Below, one piece after another: positions 3,108 to 57,262 of a stretch of DNA of 64,000 nt. The notes under the pieces are model-generated. The model made no database searches. It had not been told where the DNA came from and worked only from the letters and a program-made list of their open reading frames with translations. The translations under genes were made by a program, and so were the position numbers. Numbering within the stretch: the stretch's first letter is position 1; each line of letters opens with the position of its first letter. Source of the stretch: Gordius sp. MW1 (lineage: Eukaryota > Nematomorpha > Gordioida > Gordea > Gordiidae); the NCBI GenBank assembly GCA_964036665.1, contig OZ038528.1, forward strand, positions 17,843,245 to 17,907,244, in the 5' to 3' direction.

Positions 3108-3574
3108 TATCGATTTATAAAGATCATAATACTTCATCAGATTAGTTAGTATGAAAAGGCTTAGTAATATAGCTCTATTTAATTCAGGTTTGTAGGTGAA
3201 TGGGCTTTCTAACTAACTCCCTCCGATGTAAAAAAATAGGGTTAAGAAAAGTATAACCATTAATATTATAAAAACCATTTGCATTCCGTTTCCTGATGAA
3301 AGTTGTGGAGCTACTTGGTTAGCTAATATGGCTGATTTATTACATAATGGTTTAATTAGTAATGTGGGACGCAGTTATTTGCTTTTGAGTGTTTAGGATA
3401 TCGCTGCATGTGAAAGATTTTAATGGTGAGACAAATTTGTGAGGTGAAATTCGTGTATACTCGTAATGCCGAAAAATTATATTAATGTTTCTTTAATATT
3501 ATTCAATTAAAAGAGTTAGCATCATTAACCCCATGTTAGTATTAGCAACCTATGCAGTTGGCCAAGCATTGTGA
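3108..3574. other. Unassigned AT-rich sequence
   Basis: No ORF, repeat or motif I can identify. It separates two Gypsy elements. Confidence 0.5.
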
Positions 3575-12613: not shown

Positions 12614-12783
12614 TACTAATAAATACTGATCTTCGCTTTAGCATACTAACAAACTAACCACTAACCTACTAACAATTGGACACGTAACTTTTGGTTAGCG
12701 GGCCCGAGATGCACCAATGGTGTCAGATGGACTCAATTTTAGCTTGCCGATTTAGCTAAGCTCTTGTTTGTCATCGGGGCTTA
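12614..12783. other. Unique-looking sequence before the TACA array
   Basis: Short spacer with no ORF or motif that I recognise. Confidence 0.4.
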
Positions 12784-14695
12784 TACATACATACATACAT
12801 ACATACATACATACATACATACATACATACATACATACATACATACATACATACATACATACATACATACATACATACATACATACATACATACATACAT
12901 ACATACATACATACATACATACATACATACATACATACATACATACATACATACATACATACATACATACATACATACATACATACATACATACATACAT
13001 ACATACATACATACATACATACATACATACATACATACATACATACATACATACATACATACATACATACATACATACATACATACATACATACATACAT
13101 ACATACATACATACATACATACATACATACATACATACATACATACATACATACATACATACATACATACATACATACATACATACATACATACATACAT
13201 ACATACATACATACATACATACATACATACATACATACATACATACATACATACATACATACATACATACATACATACATACATACATACATACATACAT
13301 ACATACATACATACATACATACATACATACATACATACATACATACATACATACATACATACATACATACATACATACATACATACATACATACATACAT
13401 ACATACATACATACATACATACATACATACATACATACATACATACATACATACATACATACATACATACATACATACATACATACATACATACATACAT
13501 ACATACATACATACATACATACATACATACATACATACATACATACATACATACATACATACATACATACATACATACATACATACATACATACATACAT
13601 ACATACATACATACATACATACATACATACATACATACATACATACATACATACATACATACATACATACATACATACATACATACATACATACATACAT
13701 ACATACATACATACATACATACATACATACATACATACATACATACATACATACATACATACATACATACATACATACATACATACATACATACATACAT
13801 ACATACATACATACATACATACATACATACATACATACATACATACATACATACATACATACATACATACATACATACATACATACATACATACATACAT
13901 ACATACATACATACATACATACATACATACATACATACATACATACATACATACATACATACATACATACATACATACATACATACATACATACATACAT
14001 ACATACATACATACATACATACATACATACATACATACATACATACATACATACATACATACATACATACATACATACATACATACATACATACATACAT
14101 ACATACATACATACATACATACATACATACATACATACATACATACATACATACATACATACATACATACATACATACATACATACATACATACATACAT
14201 ACATACATACATACATACATACATACATACATACATACATACATACATACATACATACATACATACATACATACATACATACATACATACATACATACAT
14301 ACATACATACATACATACATACATACATACATACATACATACATACATACATACATACATACATACATACATACATACATACATACATACATACATACAT
14401 ACATACATACATACATACATACATACATACATACATACATACATACATACATACATACATACATACATACATACATACATACATACATACATACATACAT
14501 ACATACATACATACATACATACATACATACATACATACATACATACATACATACATACATACATACATACATACATACATACATACATACATACATACAT
14601 ACATACATACATACATACATACATACATACATACATACATACATACATACATACATACATACATACATACATACATACATACATACATACATACA

Positions 14696-14724
<29 letters not shown>
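12784..14724 (+). repeat. (TACA)n microsatellite, about 485 copies
   Basis: About 1.94 kb of TACA repeats without a visible interruption. It breaks into TATATATTG at 14725. The four long frames across it (Y-I-H-T and M-Y-V-C repeats) are consequences of the repeat, not genes. Such a long perfect tract is polymorphic and may be mis-sized in an assembly. Confidence 0.98.
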
Positions 14725-14730
<6 letters not shown>

Positions 14731-18620: not shown

Positions 18621-20264
18621 TTAGTTATTATGAAACGATAACCAACAATGCATGTGAAGTCCAACATTGCAATAAGAACATAATATTCTAGTCGCTTTTT
18701 TACAAACAACGCAGCGCCGTTGAGTACAATGCTGTCGTTGATGATTGTCTACGACGTTTCTAATTTTTGTCAATCTAGGATTCAACGTTCTTTTCGGAAG
18801 TTGGCCGTATTTTTTAAAATAATTTTGGACGATTTCCCGTTTGAAGTTACAAAGTGTCATGTTTCCTTTGTTCATGCAATACAGTTGCCAAGCATTTTGA
18901 CACGCTGTATCTAATCCAAACGCAAATAATGGAAAATACCATTTCCTGCCCCTGTAAGATATTCTAGTCGCATCGACGTTCTGATCCAAGCGATCAACGC
19001 CGCCCATGAATTTATTATACATTTTCACCATAAATGGGCATTGAACTGATATCTTTTTCCTTGATTTTTGAACTGTTGCAATTCTTGCTATATTAGTTAT
19101 GGGCGTGACACCATGACAATTAGAAAGCATTGTCACTATGTTATTATCGTTCCAACGTAGTGCCATGATGTTAGGTGTATTCTTCTTTGAAATAAACCCT
19201 CTTTCCTTTTTTTTCACGGTCTTTATATCAATCAAGGGACATTTGATACGATTTACTCGTACTGTCCCAGTAGCTCCAATATTCATATGTGAAAGACATT
19301 TCAATAACTTGGAGCTGGTAAAATAATTATCGAAATATATATTATACGGGGCGAAATCGGGAGGGAGTTTTTCTACAAGGTCTAATATTACAGCTCCTCC
19401 TAATCCAAAATCCTTTTGCTTGGTCATCAAATATGAGGCTCCTTGGTAAGGCTGCATATTAATTAGGTAGCCGGTTTTAGTGGCCGCACACCACATTTTA
19501 AAGCCAAATCTAAAAGGCTTGCCTTTTATAAATTGCTTTGCAATGTGGTGTCCATAATAAGGGACCATAGATTCATCCATAGCAATGTGGGAGGAATTGC
19601 AATATTTAAAATTGGTTTTAAACCTATCATTCAAAATATCTAGAAAACCGCGTATCTTGGAAAATTTGTCTGATGGGAACAATTTCGAGTTATCTGACAG
19701 ATGGAGATATTTAGTTATCTCTTGAAACCGATTTCTGCGCATACCATTGGATACCATTTTGTTAAATGAATCGGCCTGAAGTTCCCAAAACATTTTGATA
19801 TTTTTTGGGGACAAGTAACCAGTTAAAAAAAGGATTGAAATGTAGATTTTGAATTCGCTAATCGTTAAATTTAGATCATGGTTGTGTTGTCTTGCATATA
19901 AATTACTCATATTTACAACAAGTGTAATAACATCATTTGAGATAAACTGTTCTAAATAGTCTTCAGGATGCTCTAAAACGATGGGGTTGAATATACGATT
20001 TTCATCAGAGTCCCCACAACCCCGTGGCCTAAATATGACGTCATTATCGGTCCATTTACCGTCTATATCTTGAAAGTTATCGAGCTCATTTGACCTAACC
20101 ACCTCAATACAAGAATTAAGCATAGATCGTGGCAAATGTTGCAGATCAAAGTCCATTTCATCCCCACTTTCCATATCCGTGTCCCCTTCGTCTTGAGGCG
20201 GAAAAATCAGTACTTCGTCAATATTTTCATTCGGTGTGTCCAATTCCTCTATAATGTCTATCAA
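18621..20264 (-). CDS. piggyBac transposase (PGBD-like), 547 aa
   Basis: DDE-type transposase that cuts and pastes the element at TTAA. The frame is uninterrupted. An acidic N-terminus (residues 1-45) is followed by the transposase core. Candidate catalytic Asps are D230 in IAMDESMVPYYG, D312 in YFDNYF, and D424 in MGGVDRLDQ. The C-terminal tail is a cysteine-rich finger (residues about 515-542: CVVCKKATRILCSYC, then CW). The length is in the usual 500-600 range. A TTAG splice-acceptor-like sequence lies about 10 bases upstream of the first ATG, so an earlier exon is possible. It lies between terminal repeats in perfect condition, so it may be, or recently was, active. Confidence is high for family and moderate for activity. 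Confidence 0.93.
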   Translation of the reverse strand: MIDIIEELDTPNENIDEVLIFPPQDEGDTDMESGDEMDFDLQHLPRSMLNSCIEVVRSNELDNFQDIDGKWTDNDVIFRPRGCGDSDENRIFNPIVLEHPEDYLEQFISNDVITLVVNMSNLYARQHNHDLNLTISEFKIYISILFLTGYLSPKNIKMFWELQADSFNKMVSNGMRRNRFQEITKYLHLSDNSKLFPSDKFSKIRGFLDILNDRFKTNFKYCNSSHIAMDESMVPYYGHHIAKQFIKGKPFRFGFKMWCAATKTGYLINMQPYQGASYLMTKQKDFGLGGAVILDLVEKLPPDFAPYNIYFDNYFTSSKLLKCLSHMNIGATGTVRVNRIKCPLIDIKTVKKKERGFISKKNTPNIMALRWNDNNIVTMLSNCHGVTPITNIARIATVQKSRKKISVQCPFMVKMYNKFMGGVDRLDQNVDATRISYRGRKWYFPLFAFGLDTACQNAWQLYCMNKGNMTLCNFKREIVQNYFKKYGQLPKRTLNPRLTKIRNVVDNHQRQHCTQRRCVVCKKATRILCSYCNVGLHMHCWLSFHNN

Positions 20265-21058
20265 AGTTCTAACGCAAAATAATAAAACTAATAATAGTAC
20301 ATAATATTTAAAAAGGGGACTTATGTCTCAAATTCTATTATAAATCACTTTTAACTTTTTAAAACGACAGATAGAATCCGAATGAATAACAAAAATCGCA
20401 TAAAATTTATCAATTGAGTTCGACCTCCTTATTCTCATACTTATTTGTGGTGATAGGATGTGTAAATATATATATAAATATTGTTTTTTGCATATTTCCT
20501 ACTAAAAAATTAGCAAAAATTTGAAAATGAAAATTTACCTAGACTAATTTTTATTTCCTATAGGTGGAAAATTTGCGATATTCTTGACTTTCCTAGCCCC
20601 ACCCCTTATAAACCATTAAGGTTTACGAGAAAAAGACAAAAATATATATAAAAGATCCATACTTTTAAAATGAAAACACTTAAAAAGATATGCTCGGCAA
20701 ACTAGCTCTGCCCAGTGTAACCTTTAGGTTATGTTCAACTTTAAGGCAAAATTTAAAGGCTTTAAAGTACTCAAATAAATTCAAAATTACTATCAAAATG
20801 TTGGAAAAATTATAGAGATTATAAATATGCAAATTAAATTGCAAAAACTTACAGTTGAGTATCCATAAATATTGAATTTAAGAAGGGAGGTAGAAAATGC
20901 AGATTTTGCGATTTTTGAATGAGAATAATTCACGAATGAAGGAAGAAGGAGTTATGAAATTATATCAGCTGATTTATCGCATTTCGTTCTTTCAAATTTA
21001 ATTTAAAAAATGTTTTTATCTTCTGTAGTTTTTAAGAAATGTGGTTTTAAAGTTGCGT
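20265..21058. other. piggyBac 5' non-coding part
   Basis: About 0.8 kb between the transposase start and the right terminal repeat, AT-rich. It would hold the promoter on the minus strand; I cannot point to one. Confidence 0.4.
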
Positions 21059-26463: not shown

Positions 26464-27135
26464 TCATTGTCCTTGATTGATCACTGGACAGTGCGATAAT
26501 AGAGCGCCGAAGGTATGTAATTCCGGTGTTGGAGACGCTATTGCGATTCCTAAAATTTTTTCGGTACCTGCTTGATGATTGAAAGATTTCGGGTGGACAA
26601 AACGACGCGGTGGTATGTAACTTAATGCATGAAGGTTGTCTGTACAGGGCAGTGTGGTCAATATGCGCTGAAGGGTGTAATGCCGATGCATAGGAACGGT
26701 AGGGCCAAGCTCGATGGAATTTTGCCGGTACAGAGCAGGCGTGTACGACGATGATCCGAGTATGAAATTTAGTATTGCATGCGCGCACGTGATCCCACAT
26801 GCGAAATTATATTCGGAGGTATAATGCCCGTTATCACCTTTAAGTAGGTTTGATGAGGTCGAATTTCCTGGGTGGGCAAATATTTTTGCTAATTGCGCAT
26901 GGCGTGATTTATATATTTGGTTGGTTACCGGAACGTCGCACGTGGTTTGATGAGAGGTAATACCATCGTAGTCAGGTCCGAGGTTACTTTTCGCGAAGTT
27001 CATAGCTCCAAGGTGATTATGGTAGGCGGAGTTGCATTTTATGCGAGATACGCCTGGTGACAATTTTTTTACATTTAGTGATGTTTCTGGTGCCTGTGTC
27101 GGCGCCGATAGCTGAGTATGGTATAGCGAAGTCAC
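26464..27135 (-). CDS. Unidentified 223-codon ORF
   Basis: I do not recognise this protein. It is notable for higher GC than its surroundings and for a long open frame in AT-rich DNA. The sequence is rich in His, Ser, Thr and Pro, with no clear catalytic motif, no signal peptide and no clear membrane segment. Its start would be ATG at 27133-27135. It may be the 5' ORF or untranslated part of a LINE, since the R2-like fragment at 22300 has a similar base composition, or chance. It lies just outside foldback element 2. Confidence 0.3.
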   Translation of the reverse strand: MTSLYHTQLSAPTQAPETSLNVKKLSPGVSRIKCNSAYHNHLGAMNFAKSNLGPDYDGITSHQTTCDVPVTNQIYKSRHAQLAKIFAHPGNSTSSNLLKGDNGHYTSEYNFACGITCAHAILNFILGSSSYTPALYRQNSIELGPTVPMHRHYTLQRILTTLPCTDNLHALSYIPPRRFVHPKSFNHQAGTEKILGIAIASPTPELHTFGALLSHCPVINQGQ

Positions 27136-27176
27136 TGATAATTTAATCGGAATATTTGTACTCCTATGGTCGAGAA

Positions 27177-28332
27177 TATAGTTGTTAAATTGCTAAGTAG
27201 CTTCAAATAAAACCGCGAGCACGAACATTAGCTGGGTAATATGTTAGTTTAACACAATGAGTGCTAGCTGTTCGGTGCAATAGTTTTAACAGTAGCACGT
27301 AAAAATGCTCGAGAGGTTAGTCGAAGCAGCCAAAAATGTTAAAAAACTTAGTAGGAGCTCGAGCAGTAAATTCGAGCAGATAGTAGATTGAATTGCTATT
27401 TGTTAAAATTACGATTTTAATCATATTATATATCATAAATAAATTAAGAACTTTGCCCCCCCCCCTTATTTTTTACCCTCTTTCTTACCAGAGGGGGGGG
27501 GGAGTGTTTTGCCCCCCCCCCTTATTTTTTATCCTTTTTCTCACCAGAGGGAAGATGGGGGGGGGGTGTTTTGCCGCCCCCTTAATTTTATCCTTTTCCT
27601 CACCAGAGGGGAGATAAAGGGGGGGGGGGGGGGGGGGGTGTTTTGCCCCCCCCCTTTATTTTTTACCCTCTTTCTCACCGGGGGGGAGGGGTGTTTTGCT
27701 TCCCTTCTTTTTTATCCTCTTTTTCACTGGTGCCCCCCTGGTAAGAAAAAGAGTGAAAAATAAGGTTGTGGGGCATAACCCCACCCCTCCCCTCTGGTGA
27801 GAAAGAGGGTAAAAAATAAGGGGGGCAAATACCCCCCCCCCCTCCCGTCTGGTGAGAAAGAGGATAAAAAATAGGGGGGGGGGGGGTACTCCCCCCCCCC
27901 TCTCGTCTGGTGAGAAAGAGGATAAAAAATAAGGGCGGGGCAAAACACCCTCCCCCCCCCCTCCCCCCTGGTAAGAAAGAGGGTAAAAAATAAGGGGGGT
28001 GGCAAAACACCCCCCTTCCATCTGGTAAGAAAGAGGGAGGGGGGGGGCAAAGTTTTTAATTTATTTATGATATATAATATGATTATAATTGTAATTTTAA
28101 CAAATAGCAATTCAATCTACTATCTGCTCGAATTTACTGCTCGAACTCCTGCGTAATTTTTTAACAGATTTGGCTGCTTCGACTAACCTCTCGAGCATTT
28201 TAACGTGCTGTTAAAACTATTGCACCGAACAGCTAGCACTCATTGTGTAAACTAGCATATTATCCAGCTAGTGTTCGTGCTCGAGCATAGCACATAGTTA
28301 ACATTGCTAAAGTTAGCAATTTAACAACTTTA
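27177..28332. mobile_element. Foldback element 2 with G-run tandem repeats, 8-bp target duplication
   Basis: The ends are TATAGTTGTTAAATTGCTAA and, inverted, TAAAGTTGTTAAATTGCTAA. Flanks are GTCGAGAA (27169-27176) and GTCGAGAG (28333-28340), 7 of 8 identical, as for hAT. About 270 bp of each arm is ordinary sequence (for example TGCTCGAGAGGTTAGTCGAA on the left, its complement near 28180). Inside, units of about 50-80 bp with CCCTCTTTCTCACCAGAG, a G run and CCCCCCCTTATTTTT run in one direction to about 27730 and then in the opposite direction. Confidence 0.85.
27440..28050. repeat. Inverted G-run/C-run minisatellite in foldback element 2
   Basis: At least five units on each side of a centre near 27735. 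G runs reach about 21 (around 27616-27640). The frames on both strands with repeated FYPLSYQRGG-like peptides are by-products of the repeat. Confidence 0.9.
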
Positions 28333-28439
28333 GTCGAGAGGCTAGTAGCTCTCATTGGGGAGCGGCCTGAACGACTTAGGGTGTGTTAATACATATTCCA
28401 TTAAGCTTCAAAAGATATACTAAATTATATTTGGCTGCC

Positions 28440-54410: not shown

Positions 54411-57262
54411 CTTCTTCTTCTTTATCAGTTATTGGGTCCCAGATTCGTGGGGTTTGTTTTGATAAGCTTCTTCCATCTTGACCGGGTGAGTGCCATGTCT
54501 TGACTAATCTCTTTAGTTTTCATAACTTTATCGACTTGCCTTTTCCACGTGACACAGGGTCGTCCTCTTCCTCTCTTCCCCGGTACCTCCATGTCCAGTA
54601 CTTTTCGATTTACGTCATCCGTGTCCCTTCTTAGTATATGCCCATACCACCTTAGCCAATTTTCGTTAATCATGTCCGCCATAGGTTGAATACCCATTTT
54701 TGTCATGAGAAAGTCATTCGTCATATGGTCGAGCTTAGTATACCCCAAGCTCCACCGTATCATTCTCATCTCTGTGGCTTGTAATAGCTTGCCTTCCGTG
54801 GTGTTTAGTGCCCTTGTTTCAGTTCCATATAGTAACACCGGTCTTACGATGGATTTGTAAGCTTTGCTCTTCAACCATATTGGCATTTTCTTGTCGCACA
54901 TTACACCGGATATACTTCGCCATTTAAGCCATCCTTTTTGGATCCGGGCATTGACTTCTGTTGTGCAACCTCCCTCTTGATGTAGCATCGAGCCGAGGTA
55001 TTTAAACCTGTCTACTTTGGGGTACTTTAGATGGTCATCCAGCGATTGGGTGCTTGTACCGTTCATTTCCATGTATACCGTTTTTCGATCGTTGACCTTT
55101 AAACCATATCTAGCTAAGCGCTTCGACCACTTTTCGACTTCTTCGAATACTTTGTCCCTTGTTTCCTCGCATAGTACTATATCATCGGCATATAGCATAC
55201 ACCATGGCGATGGCTTTTGAATGTCCATCGTTATCGTGTCTATAATTATATTAAATAAAAAGGGACTTAAAGCAGATCCTTGATGTAATCCAATTTTAAC
55301 CCGAAACGATTTAGAGTCTCCAACTGTCGTCCTAACGCAAGAGTTTGAGGCTTCATAAATATTTTTCATAAGCCGTATATATGCGTCAGGAATACTTTGT
55401 TTTCTCAGGCACCACCATATTAAATCGCGGGGGACCGTGTCATAAGCTTTCTCCAAGTCGATAAAGACCATATGTAGGTCTTTCCTCTTTTCACCATACT
55501 TATCCATTATTTGTCTTAGTGCGAAGATTGGGTCGATTGTGGATTTGCCGGCCACAAATCCGAATTGATTCGCCGATATTTCCACCTCGTTTTTCAGCCT
55601 TGTTACTAAGATCCTTTCCATAAGCTTCAAGGAGTGGCAAGTTAGCTTGATACCTCTGTAATTGCCACAGTCTTGAGGGTCTCCTTTGCCTTTAAATAAG
55701 GGTATAATCGTGCTTGCTCTCCATTGATTAGGAATTCGCTCTTCTACCAATATCTTGTTAAGAAGGTTCGTCATGGTGGTGACTCCTTCTTCACGACATC
55801 CGAGCAATGCTTCTATAGGGATTCCATCTGGGCCATTTGCTTTTCCTTTTTGCATCTTGTTCATTTGTGTCCTAACTTCATCCTCCTGAAAGAGTTCGAC
55901 CAAACTTATATTAGGCTCAATTTTGGGAAGGGAATCCTTGTCATTTGCAATATTCATAAGTTTCTTAAAATATCCTTTCCACCTTTCCATCACTTCTTTT
56001 GGCTTGAATAAGGTTTGACCCTTCTTGTTTTTGACTATTTTAAGAACTCCGACATCGCGACTTTTCTTCTCCCTTATCTTGGCCAATTTGTACATAAGCC
56101 TATCGCCACCTTTATGATCCAGTTTGTTTGCCATCTCGGTGTAGGCGGCATTCTTCGCTATTGCGACGGCCTTTTTTGCGGCCCTCTTTGCGTCCCTATA
56201 CTCTTGATAATCCTCCGACTTTTTTGATTTATGCCACCCTCTATATAGATTTTTCTTTCTTTCGATAAAATCCCTAACCGATTTATCCCACCACCATAGT
56301 TCCCTATTCATAGCTTTGCCTCCTTTGGTCTGTCCTAGAACATGAATCGCTGTTTCCTTAAGGTCCTTAGATAGCGTCTCCCAATCGTCGTCTACGTCTC
56401 TTTGCAACTTCCTTGCACCCAAGAGTGAGGAGGCTTTTTGATGATATTTTTCGCTTGTCGACGTATCGTTCAGCCTTTCATATCGAATTCGAGGTTCATA
56501 GACCTTTCTTCTTTCGGTAAATACTCTTCTATCAAGATCCATAACAAGGGGACGATGTTGCCTGGCAATTTCTTCTCCCGGTATTACTTTGCAATCCTTG
56601 ATACTCCATAAGACCTTTCGCCGTATAAGCAAATAGTCAATTTGACTAAAATGCTTCCCACTTCTATAGGTCACAACATGATCTTCTCGTTTTTGAAAAT
56701 AGGTGTTAACGATCGCCATGTCATATGCTTGGGATAATTGGAAAAGTTTTTCCCCTTCTTTGTTCTTCAGACCATGCCCATAGCCTCCATGATTACGTTC
56801 ATACCCGAGACGATCTTTCCCTACGTGAGCTTTGAAATCGGCCCCAATAATTAGCCTTTCTTCGGGTCGGATTCCTTGTATTTCTTTTTCCAATGAATCG
56901 AAGAATATGTCTTTCTCTGATTCCATACACCCAATTTGGGGAGCATACGCGCACATAACGGTTAGAAGGCCCCCTTGATCTGCAATCTTCACCCACATTA
57001 GCCTGTCGGAACAACGCTTGACTTTTACCACCTTGTCCTTGAACGATTCGCTAAGAACGATACCGACCCCGTTTCTACGATTTGGTGACCCACTGTAGAA
57101 AAGCTTGTATCCTTCTCCTAATTCCCGAGCTTTCGTTCCGTTCCACCTCGTCTCTTGTAGGCAGGCGATGTGTACCTTTCTTCTTTTTAGCATTTGTGCA
57201 CCTCGATGCTCTTCCCCGTCAACGTTCCCACATTCCAACACGTTATTCGCATTCTTTCAACA
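54411..57262 (-). mobile_element. RTE-like LINE, nearly full-length
   Basis: The element carries one long ORF on the minus strand, with 3' tail GAAGAAGAAGATT near 54411. The 5' side begins near GAAAGAATGCGAATAACG (57262). 42910-43593 is a second, shorter copy. No target duplication was found. Confidence 0.9.
54425..57241 (-). CDS. LINE polyprotein: AP endonuclease and reverse transcriptase, 938 aa
   Basis: Endonuclease (residues 1-235): LQETRWNG holds the catalytic Glu, IIGADFKAHVG the Asp, SQIDYLL and RQHRPLV (His about 229). The usual GDFN reads ADFK here, so the Asn expected next to the Asp is Lys. RT (about 440-740): FVAGKSTIDP, FIDLEKAYDTVPRD, LHQGSALSPFLFN, CMLYADDIVLCEE (catalytic Asps) and FKYLGSML. 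The C-terminal end carries DVNRKVLDM. Just upstream in another frame is RMRITCWNVGTLTG, the usual N-terminus, so one frameshift near 57190 separates the start from the ORF. The last residues also look frame-shifted relative to the copy at 42919, which ends ITDKEED. RTE-like by motif; the exact clade is not tested. Confidence 0.92.
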   Translation of the reverse strand: MLECGNVDGEEHRGAQMLKRRKVHIACLQETRWNGTKARELGEGYKLFYSGSPNRRNGVGIVLSESFKDKVVKVKRCSDRLMWVKIADQGGLLTVMCAYAPQIGCMESEKDIFFDSLEKEIQGIRPEERLIIGADFKAHVGKDRLGYERNHGGYGHGLKNKEGEKLFQLSQAYDMAIVNTYFQKREDHVVTYRSGKHFSQIDYLLIRRKVLWSIKDCKVIPGEEIARQHRPLVMDLDRRVFTERRKVYEPRIRYERLNDTSTSEKYHQKASSLLGARKLQRDVDDDWETLSKDLKETAIHVLGQTKGGKAMNRELWWWDKSVRDFIERKKNLYRGWHKSKKSEDYQEYRDAKRAAKKAVAIAKNAAYTEMANKLDHKGGDRLMYKLAKIREKKSRDVGVLKIVKNKKGQTLFKPKEVMERWKGYFKKLMNIANDKDSLPKIEPNISLVELFQEDEVRTQMNKMQKGKANGPDGIPIEALLGCREEGVTTMTNLLNKILVEERIPNQWRASTIIPLFKGKGDPQDCGNYRGIKLTCHSLKLMERILVTRLKNEVEISANQFGFVAGKSTIDPIFALRQIMDKYGEKRKDLHMVFIDLEKAYDTVPRDLIWWCLRKQSIPDAYIRLMKNIYEASNSCVRTTVGDSKSFRVKIGLHQGSALSPFLFNIIIDTITMDIQKPSPWCMLYADDIVLCEETRDKVFEEVEKWSKRLARYGLKVNDRKTVYMEMNGTSTQSLDDHLKYPKVDRFKYLGSMLHQEGGCTTEVNARIQKGWLKWRSISGVMCDKKMPIWLKSKAYKSIVRPVLLYGTETRALNTTEGKLLQATEMRMIRWSLGYTKLDHMTNDFLMTKMGIQPMADMINENWLRWYGHILRRDTDDVNRKVLDMEVPGKRGRGRPCVTWKRQVDKVMKTKEISQDMALTRSRWKKLIKTNPTNLGPNN

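Follow-up and report, generated by a model that had tools for sequence, protein, structure and literature searches.

The window examined here is a stretch of 64,000 nucleotides from the nematomorph Gordius sp. MW1 (assembly GCA_964036665.1, contig OZ038528.1, positions 17,843,245 to 17,907,244 of the forward strand). It contains a foldback element of 1156 bp at window positions 27177-28332, which was read base by base with its coordinates rechecked and which has many relatives in the same genome. The parts of the element and its flanks, in window coordinates, are as follows.

27169..27176, no strand: left copy of the 8-bp target-site duplication, GTCGAGAA, one base different from the right copy
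27177..27196, plus strand: left terminal inverted repeat, TATAGTTGTTAAATTGCTAA, left-type end pattern, 424 genome matches
27197..27215, plus strand: left-specific subterminal stretch, absent from the right arm by arm comparison
27216..27455, plus strand: left arm, ordinary DNA with the CGAGCA/TGCTCG motif (4 in element positions 1-264)
27456..27724, plus strand: left tandem array of about 60-bp units, 5 counted, period 59
27725..27743, no strand: asymmetric centre, CACTGGTGCCCCCCTGGTA, where the unit direction turns; it recurs in family copies
27744..28047, minus strand: right tandem array, the left-array unit inverted, 5 units counted, period 61
28048..28283, minus strand: right arm, the inverted left arm, 94% identical to its own left arm in aligned columns
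28284..28312, minus strand: right-specific subterminal stretch, CTTTAGCAATGTTAACTATGTGCTATGCT read inward, right-type end pattern, 133 genome matches
28313..28332, minus strand: right terminal inverted repeat, TAAAGTTGTTAAATTGCTAA read inward
28333..28340, no strand: right copy of the 8-bp target-site duplication, GTCGAGAG, 1 mismatch to the left copy

The outer ends agree at 19 of 20 bases, and the two arms of about 270 bp are inverted relative to each other (arm positions 40-264 against 28283-28063, 92.9% match). The initial annotation, made from the letters of the window, had given this arm length and the inverted repeat ends correctly; it had not noticed that the stretches of 19 bp (left) and 29 bp (right) between the terminal repeat and the shared arm are mutually unlike. 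The same asymmetry is found in the 17 two-armed copies described below, in which the similarity of the right arm starts only at arm position 40 or 42. The array unit of the window element is about 60 bp long and consists of a C-run, TTATTTTTTAYCCTCTTTCTCACCAGA, a G-run, and TGTTTTG. Five units run one way and five the other, with the turn at 27725-27743, so that the earlier description of mirror arms with inverted G-run/C-run units around a point near 27735 is borne out. The longest G run is 20, not about 21 as had been stated. Of all window runs of at least 8 G or C, 11/25 fall inside this 1.2-kb element, and canonical G-quadruplex (G4) motifs in the window copy number one on the plus strand and two on the minus strand.

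The arm recurs in the same genome as 39 full or nearly full other copies at 90-95% identity, together with one 35-bp match (best 40 scored of 1152 first-look candidates). The left-type end (24 bases, ≤2 mismatches) was found at 424 genome places and the right-type end (37 bases including the terminal repeat, ≤3 mismatches) at 133, with no match to the reversed-pattern control for the former and none to the control for the latter; both counts mix subfamilies. A second copy with the same termini, for which the initial annotation had called, is thus present many times over. The main sample comprised the window copy and 20 other copies, of which 17, the window included, have both arms and both ends. 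These 17 elements measure 958-1981 bp (median 1430), and one further copy, L010, is about 4.3 kb long with its right-type end just beyond the stretch examined. Miniature inverted-repeat transposable elements (MITEs) are recognised by short length, many copies, and a lack of coding sequence; end matches of the family are many, but the measured lengths lie in this range. As in foldback elements, long inverted arms make up most of each element and hold tandem repeats of variable number, 1-16 units per side in the 17 copies. Left ends start TATAGTTG in 20/21 copies, and right ends are mostly TAGAGTTG in the family, TAAAGTTG in the window element and TAGTGTTG in the giant relative described below. 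Ends of the family type followed by A or T were found at 49 places, one of which is the right end of L025.

A 35-base centre is present in the forward direction in 13/17 copies, reversed with zero differences in L023, and was not found at the set limit in three; it also occurs in L059, L071, and the L010 stretch. Since the same centre recurs across copies, these spread as foldbacks and did not each arise anew. An assembly artefact, in which the inversion would be a false join of a collapsed repeat, was weighed, since long G/C runs and palindromes are hard to assemble and exact run lengths are not trustworthy. It is nevertheless extremely improbable: both inverted arms and both ends are present at 16/20 further loci (the inverted second arm of L010 meets the edge of its stretch), matching 8-bp duplications lie outside the ends, and the same asymmetric centre is found at independent loci. 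Within an element the arms are 96.3% identical, against 95.4% between copies; the own-arm value was reached by 0/20000 permutations. The flipped centre of L023 suggests that the arms of an element can recombine with each other.

Insertion was assessed from the flanks. In the window these are GTCGAGAA (27169-27176) and GTCGAGAG (28333-28340), which differ at one base. Both ends could be delimited in 17/21 copies, and 17/17 of these are bordered by 8-bp duplications (14 without a mismatch, 3 with one), while none of 272 left-right cross pairs taken from different copies comes within 1 mismatch; the 8-bp duplication of hAT type proposed earlier holds for this sample. The empty-site query, made of the joined window flanks with one copy of the 8-mer, was run against the same genome, and 40 of 277 candidates were scored. 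The joined-flank junction is crossed in 39/40 of these matches at 82-88% identity with a gap of a few bases at most, the other match being the window itself. The element thus landed in one copy of a dispersed repeat, of which the adjoining flank is a part and which has at least 39 other copies. Because of the arm copies, the 8-bp duplications in 17/17, and the element-free related sites at 39/40, the window element is inserted DNA and chance is excluded.

The genome was searched for the hAT dimerisation domain (best 150 scored of 3413 candidates) and the matches were compared with the list of ends. At C4:10.72 Mb an end 84% like the window arm lies downstream of hAT transposase frames. The second end of this element was not found in the adjoining 4 kb. 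The transposase search gave a second, oppositely directed transposase copy at the locus; this mirror image predicted the position of the missing end, which was found there. The giant element so delimited (C4:10714836-10726360, 11,525 bp) has a perfect CATGAAAG duplication at both ends, and its ends are the unequal left/right pair of the small elements. Its inverted arms are 97.4% identical over 2900 bp (outer stretches 94.3%, inner 97.5%). Each arm carries the common terminal block and, in tandem, units of 128-129 bp (7.3 copies in one array and 9.3 in the other). Each also has a broken hAT transposase region, in which Dimer_Tnp_hAT (PF05699) was matched at E 2.1e-20 and 8.9e-20 and the hAT-like RNase-H domain at E 6e-6 and 2e-5, both of the latter just under the curated cut-off. 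No P-type/THAP Pfam match was found in six scanned pieces of the giant element, which gave hAT domains instead; Galileo and the P superfamily are recognised by a P-type transposase with a THAP domain. When one transposase piece was compared with solved structures, no useful match came up. The centre of the giant element holds other repeats, and a different foldback (L064:2271-3740, C4:10721270-10722739) with 625-bp arms at 94% and GGGCCATTCCAGGACAAATC-like ends is apparently nested to one side of it.

Besides the giant element, a second copy was found on C5 (start 22930329). Its right-type end agrees at 97.1% over 69 bp and its arm is 94.8% like the window arm; the 129-bp array is present, as is part of the transposase. 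Three derivative copies were read singly. In L070 (3321 bp) the array runs in one direction and counts 12.2 units; outside this array no DNA match to the giant-element interior was found, and a GC-rich stretch of L070 shows a 39-44% protein-level match to the giant element over about 55 residues and looks like another, nested hAT. L063 (699 bp) carries a G-run array between two left-type ends, and L068 is 336 bp long without an array. Two loci were rejected as autonomous partners. L059 (C7:4981900-4985700) has family ends and a strong hAT domain, but this domain is that of another hAT family, which is nested within the minisatellite; the nested stretch occurs at seven other loci (98-99%), with a window-type arm in none within about 3.2 kb. 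In L047 another hAT family lies inside the right end of the present family. These two other hAT families (L059:1578-2727 and L047 from 1162) have GGGTCGGGTT-type repeats near their ends, and their nesting inside copies of the present family perhaps reflects a target preference. Two further inverted hAT arrangements were seen. At G000:C3:11641643-11686120, four blocks at about 13.5-15 kb spacing each hold an inverted pair of hAT transposase fragments and are perhaps another giant foldback, tandemly amplified. At G000:C6:5654080-5659500, two open frames of 573 codons each face one another and contain hAT domains; they are possibly an intact inverted transposase pair.

The window element shares both end types with the 11.5-kb element that bears a hAT region in each inverted arm. 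On this sequence evidence it is very probably a non-autonomous foldback transposon moved by a hAT transposase. Movement by a Mutator-type transposase, as for most described foldbacks, is highly improbable: the duplications are 8 bp long, whereas FB proper and Mutator elements are recognised by a 9-bp duplication and a Mutator-type transposase, and hAT domains or hAT-matching DNA are present in relatives that have these ends. A candidate binding site for the hAT enzyme is CGAGCA, which occurs 3-5 times in each of four arms (two of the window element, two of the giant element) where dinucleotide shuffles average about 0.1, and whose positions are similar in the small and the coding elements. The core of 17/17 small copies is without this motif, as is the single 129-bp array in which it was counted. 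In the proposed mechanism a hAT transposase would bind the terminal repeats and short arm motifs, with CGAGCA as a candidate, pair the two ends, cut out the whole foldback, and reinsert it where the target has been cut with an 8-bp stagger. The transposase would have been lost from the small elements, which would carry a G-run/C-run minisatellite in each arm in place of the 129-bp array. The arrays would lengthen and shorten through slippage and unequal exchange, and the arms would swap sequence by gene conversion or crossing over, occasionally flipping the centre.

A number of observations weigh against this account or against parts of it. L063, L070, and L068 are without a clean 8-bp duplication: the flanks of L063 have 2 mismatches, those of L070 have 7 bp in common, shifted by one, and none was read for L068. 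Both ends were not seen in 4/21 copies (L010, L011, L019, and L028), the second end of the last three not being found within the stretches examined. The own-arm advantage is small (0.9 points), and 4/17 own right arms ranked 10th or lower. The terminal inverted repeats of hAT elements are usually short and of TAGNG/CAGNG type, whereas the left ends here start TATAG. A hAT transposase is also recognised by a BED zinc finger at its N-terminus, and no Pfam BED match was obtained in a 71-aa N-terminal piece from one arm of the giant element. The transposase frames of that element are interrupted by stops, frameshifts, or introns, so no activity is claimed for it, and no active transposase source was found. 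The giant element carries the 129-bp array and not the G-run array, and no step between the two interiors was seen. The CGAGCA motif was chosen post hoc, TGTTAA and GTTAAA reach the same or higher numbers in the arms of the window element, and the interior of the giant element also holds two CGAGCA.

The role of the arrays was considered separately. In a Galileo-like arrangement the tandem units would be extra transposase-binding sites that give specificity, and array length would be selected. Among the copies examined only L068 is without an array, as such an arrangement would have it. However, the candidate motif is absent from the G-run core in 17/17 copies and from the one 129-bp array counted, although the role of the motif is itself putative, and one transposase would hardly read both arrays, because their sequences differ while the ends are common. 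This explanation is improbable. Selection of the G-run/C-run cassette for DNA structure (hairpin or G-quadruplex), for instance to promote excision at replication forks or recombination between arms, is marginally less so but still unlikely. The units can make a G(n)-TGTTTTG-C(m) hairpin, of which 100 with at least 4 G and C formed the hairpin set, and the cassette also lies inside an element with different ends. In this set the lengths of neighbouring G-runs and C-runs are uncorrelated (rho 0.004, n=100) and do not track each other as hairpin selection would lead one to expect; hairpin-coupled evolution of the runs was not supported by this result, which agrees with runs slipping independently of each other rather than with a hairpin being maintained. 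The folding into G-quadruplexes or a cruciform that the initial annotation put forward is putative. Canonical G4 motifs are scarce and vary between the copies, 0-9 per strand, and hairpins would compete with G4 folding, because the C-runs lie about 7 nt from the G-runs on the same strand. Since CGAGCA is absent from the array cores, the G-run minisatellite looks like passenger or spacer DNA and not like a target of the hAT transposase.

The cassette extends beyond the family. The unit core was found at 3172 genome places at ≤2 mismatches, and two arrays distant from known family ends, L071 and L072, were read. L071 has the family centre and the innermost 38 bp of a window-type arm (97.4%), differs outside these, and may be a shortened family copy. 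In L072, of which one end was examined, the G-run array is enclosed in an outer arm that ends differently; this arm shows no real similarity to the family arm except about 27 bp at the array edge. It starts TAGTGTTGTTAATATGCC, the first 12 bases of which agree with the right-type end of the giant element, and the L072 end type has 123 genome matches at ≤3 mismatches (control 0). We infer L072 to be a hAT foldback in its own right. Among the matches listed, six L072-type ends (L072, the source of the pattern, included) lie within 3 kb of a unit core by eye, which is a lead and not a genome count. Tentatively, then, these elements could be modular hAT foldbacks: an autonomous giant palindrome would have a transposase gene in each arm, and the 129-bp and G-run/C-run cassettes would be swapped between families whose outer arms are unrelated, the interior of an arm thereby moving separately from its ends. 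Such a scheme is possible, though somewhat less probable than not.

Elsewhere in the window, an (ATAC)n array, near-perfect with 99% matches, fills 12783-14729 with about 487 copies. An open 568-codon frame at 18624-20327 (minus strand) has a DDE_Tnp_1_7 transposase domain (E 1.4e-79), which we take to be of piggyBac type, and an open 943-codon frame at 54428-57256 (minus strand) has a reverse transcriptase domain (E 6e-36) and reads as a non-LTR-type element by its build. An open 242-codon frame at 26467-27192 (minus strand), without a Pfam match, reaches into the left end of the foldback element. In the genome, TTAGGG-type telomere repeats were seen at the starts of two chromosome-sized contigs.

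Foldback transposons, Galileo among them, are able to cause inversions of chromosomes. A hAT family in which many small copies and a large coding relative have asymmetric ends in common would place the foldback build in a third superfamily. It offers a natural comparison of how long arms form, remain alike, and acquire tandem arrays, and supplies, on the scale of a genome, G-run/C-run palindromes of known position in which fork stalling and ectopic recombination could be studied.

With regard to known hAT elements, Mar and Vege of Drosophila willistoni are non-autonomous hAT MITEs by the titles of their papers, and are short and without long tandem-repeat arms. The TU elements of sea urchins have inverted arms with tandem repeats and 8-bp duplications, and if a hAT-like foldback has been described before, they are the most likely instance. 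PMC4079207 makes mention of sea urchin foldbacks. No description of a hAT foldback was found in a literature search that covered titles and abstract openings, with most subscription papers outside its coverage. The statement of the initial annotation that no described element has such a build was too strong, for foldbacks with repeat-filled arms are established in FB, Galileo, Tetris, and Tm1 (PMC4168063, PMC4079207, PMC3169594, PMC3688188). In the passages available from these papers the stated superfamilies are Mutator (or suggested Mutator) or P and not hAT; most foldbacks seem to be members of Mutator, with exceptions (PMC4079207). Galileo (P superfamily, Drosophila) is alike in having copies with and without transposase, very long inverted arms, which in one D. 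willistoni copy hold direct tandem repeats of about 140 bp, and interior sequence recruited into the arms (available passages of PMC4168063 and PMC3688188). It differs in its P-type transposase with a THAP domain, the present family being hAT; G-run units are not mentioned in those passages, and the present giant element has a transposase region in both arms. Tetris/DAIBAM of the Drosophila virilis group shares tandem repeats in modular arms and a MITE with the same final end part, but in the passages available its authors suggest Mutator, give duplications of 8-10 bp, and found no transposase (PMC4079207). Tm1 of root-knot nematodes resembles the present family in its composite arms, variable number of short repeats, asymmetric terminal motifs, and MITE-like and transposase-bearing groups, and differs, as far as the available text goes, in its Mutator/Phantom-like transposase, 9-bp duplications, and units of about 14 bp (PMC3169594). 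Against these systems, what looks new is the hAT membership with a transposase in both arms and a G-run/C-run cassette that is also present in an element with other ends.
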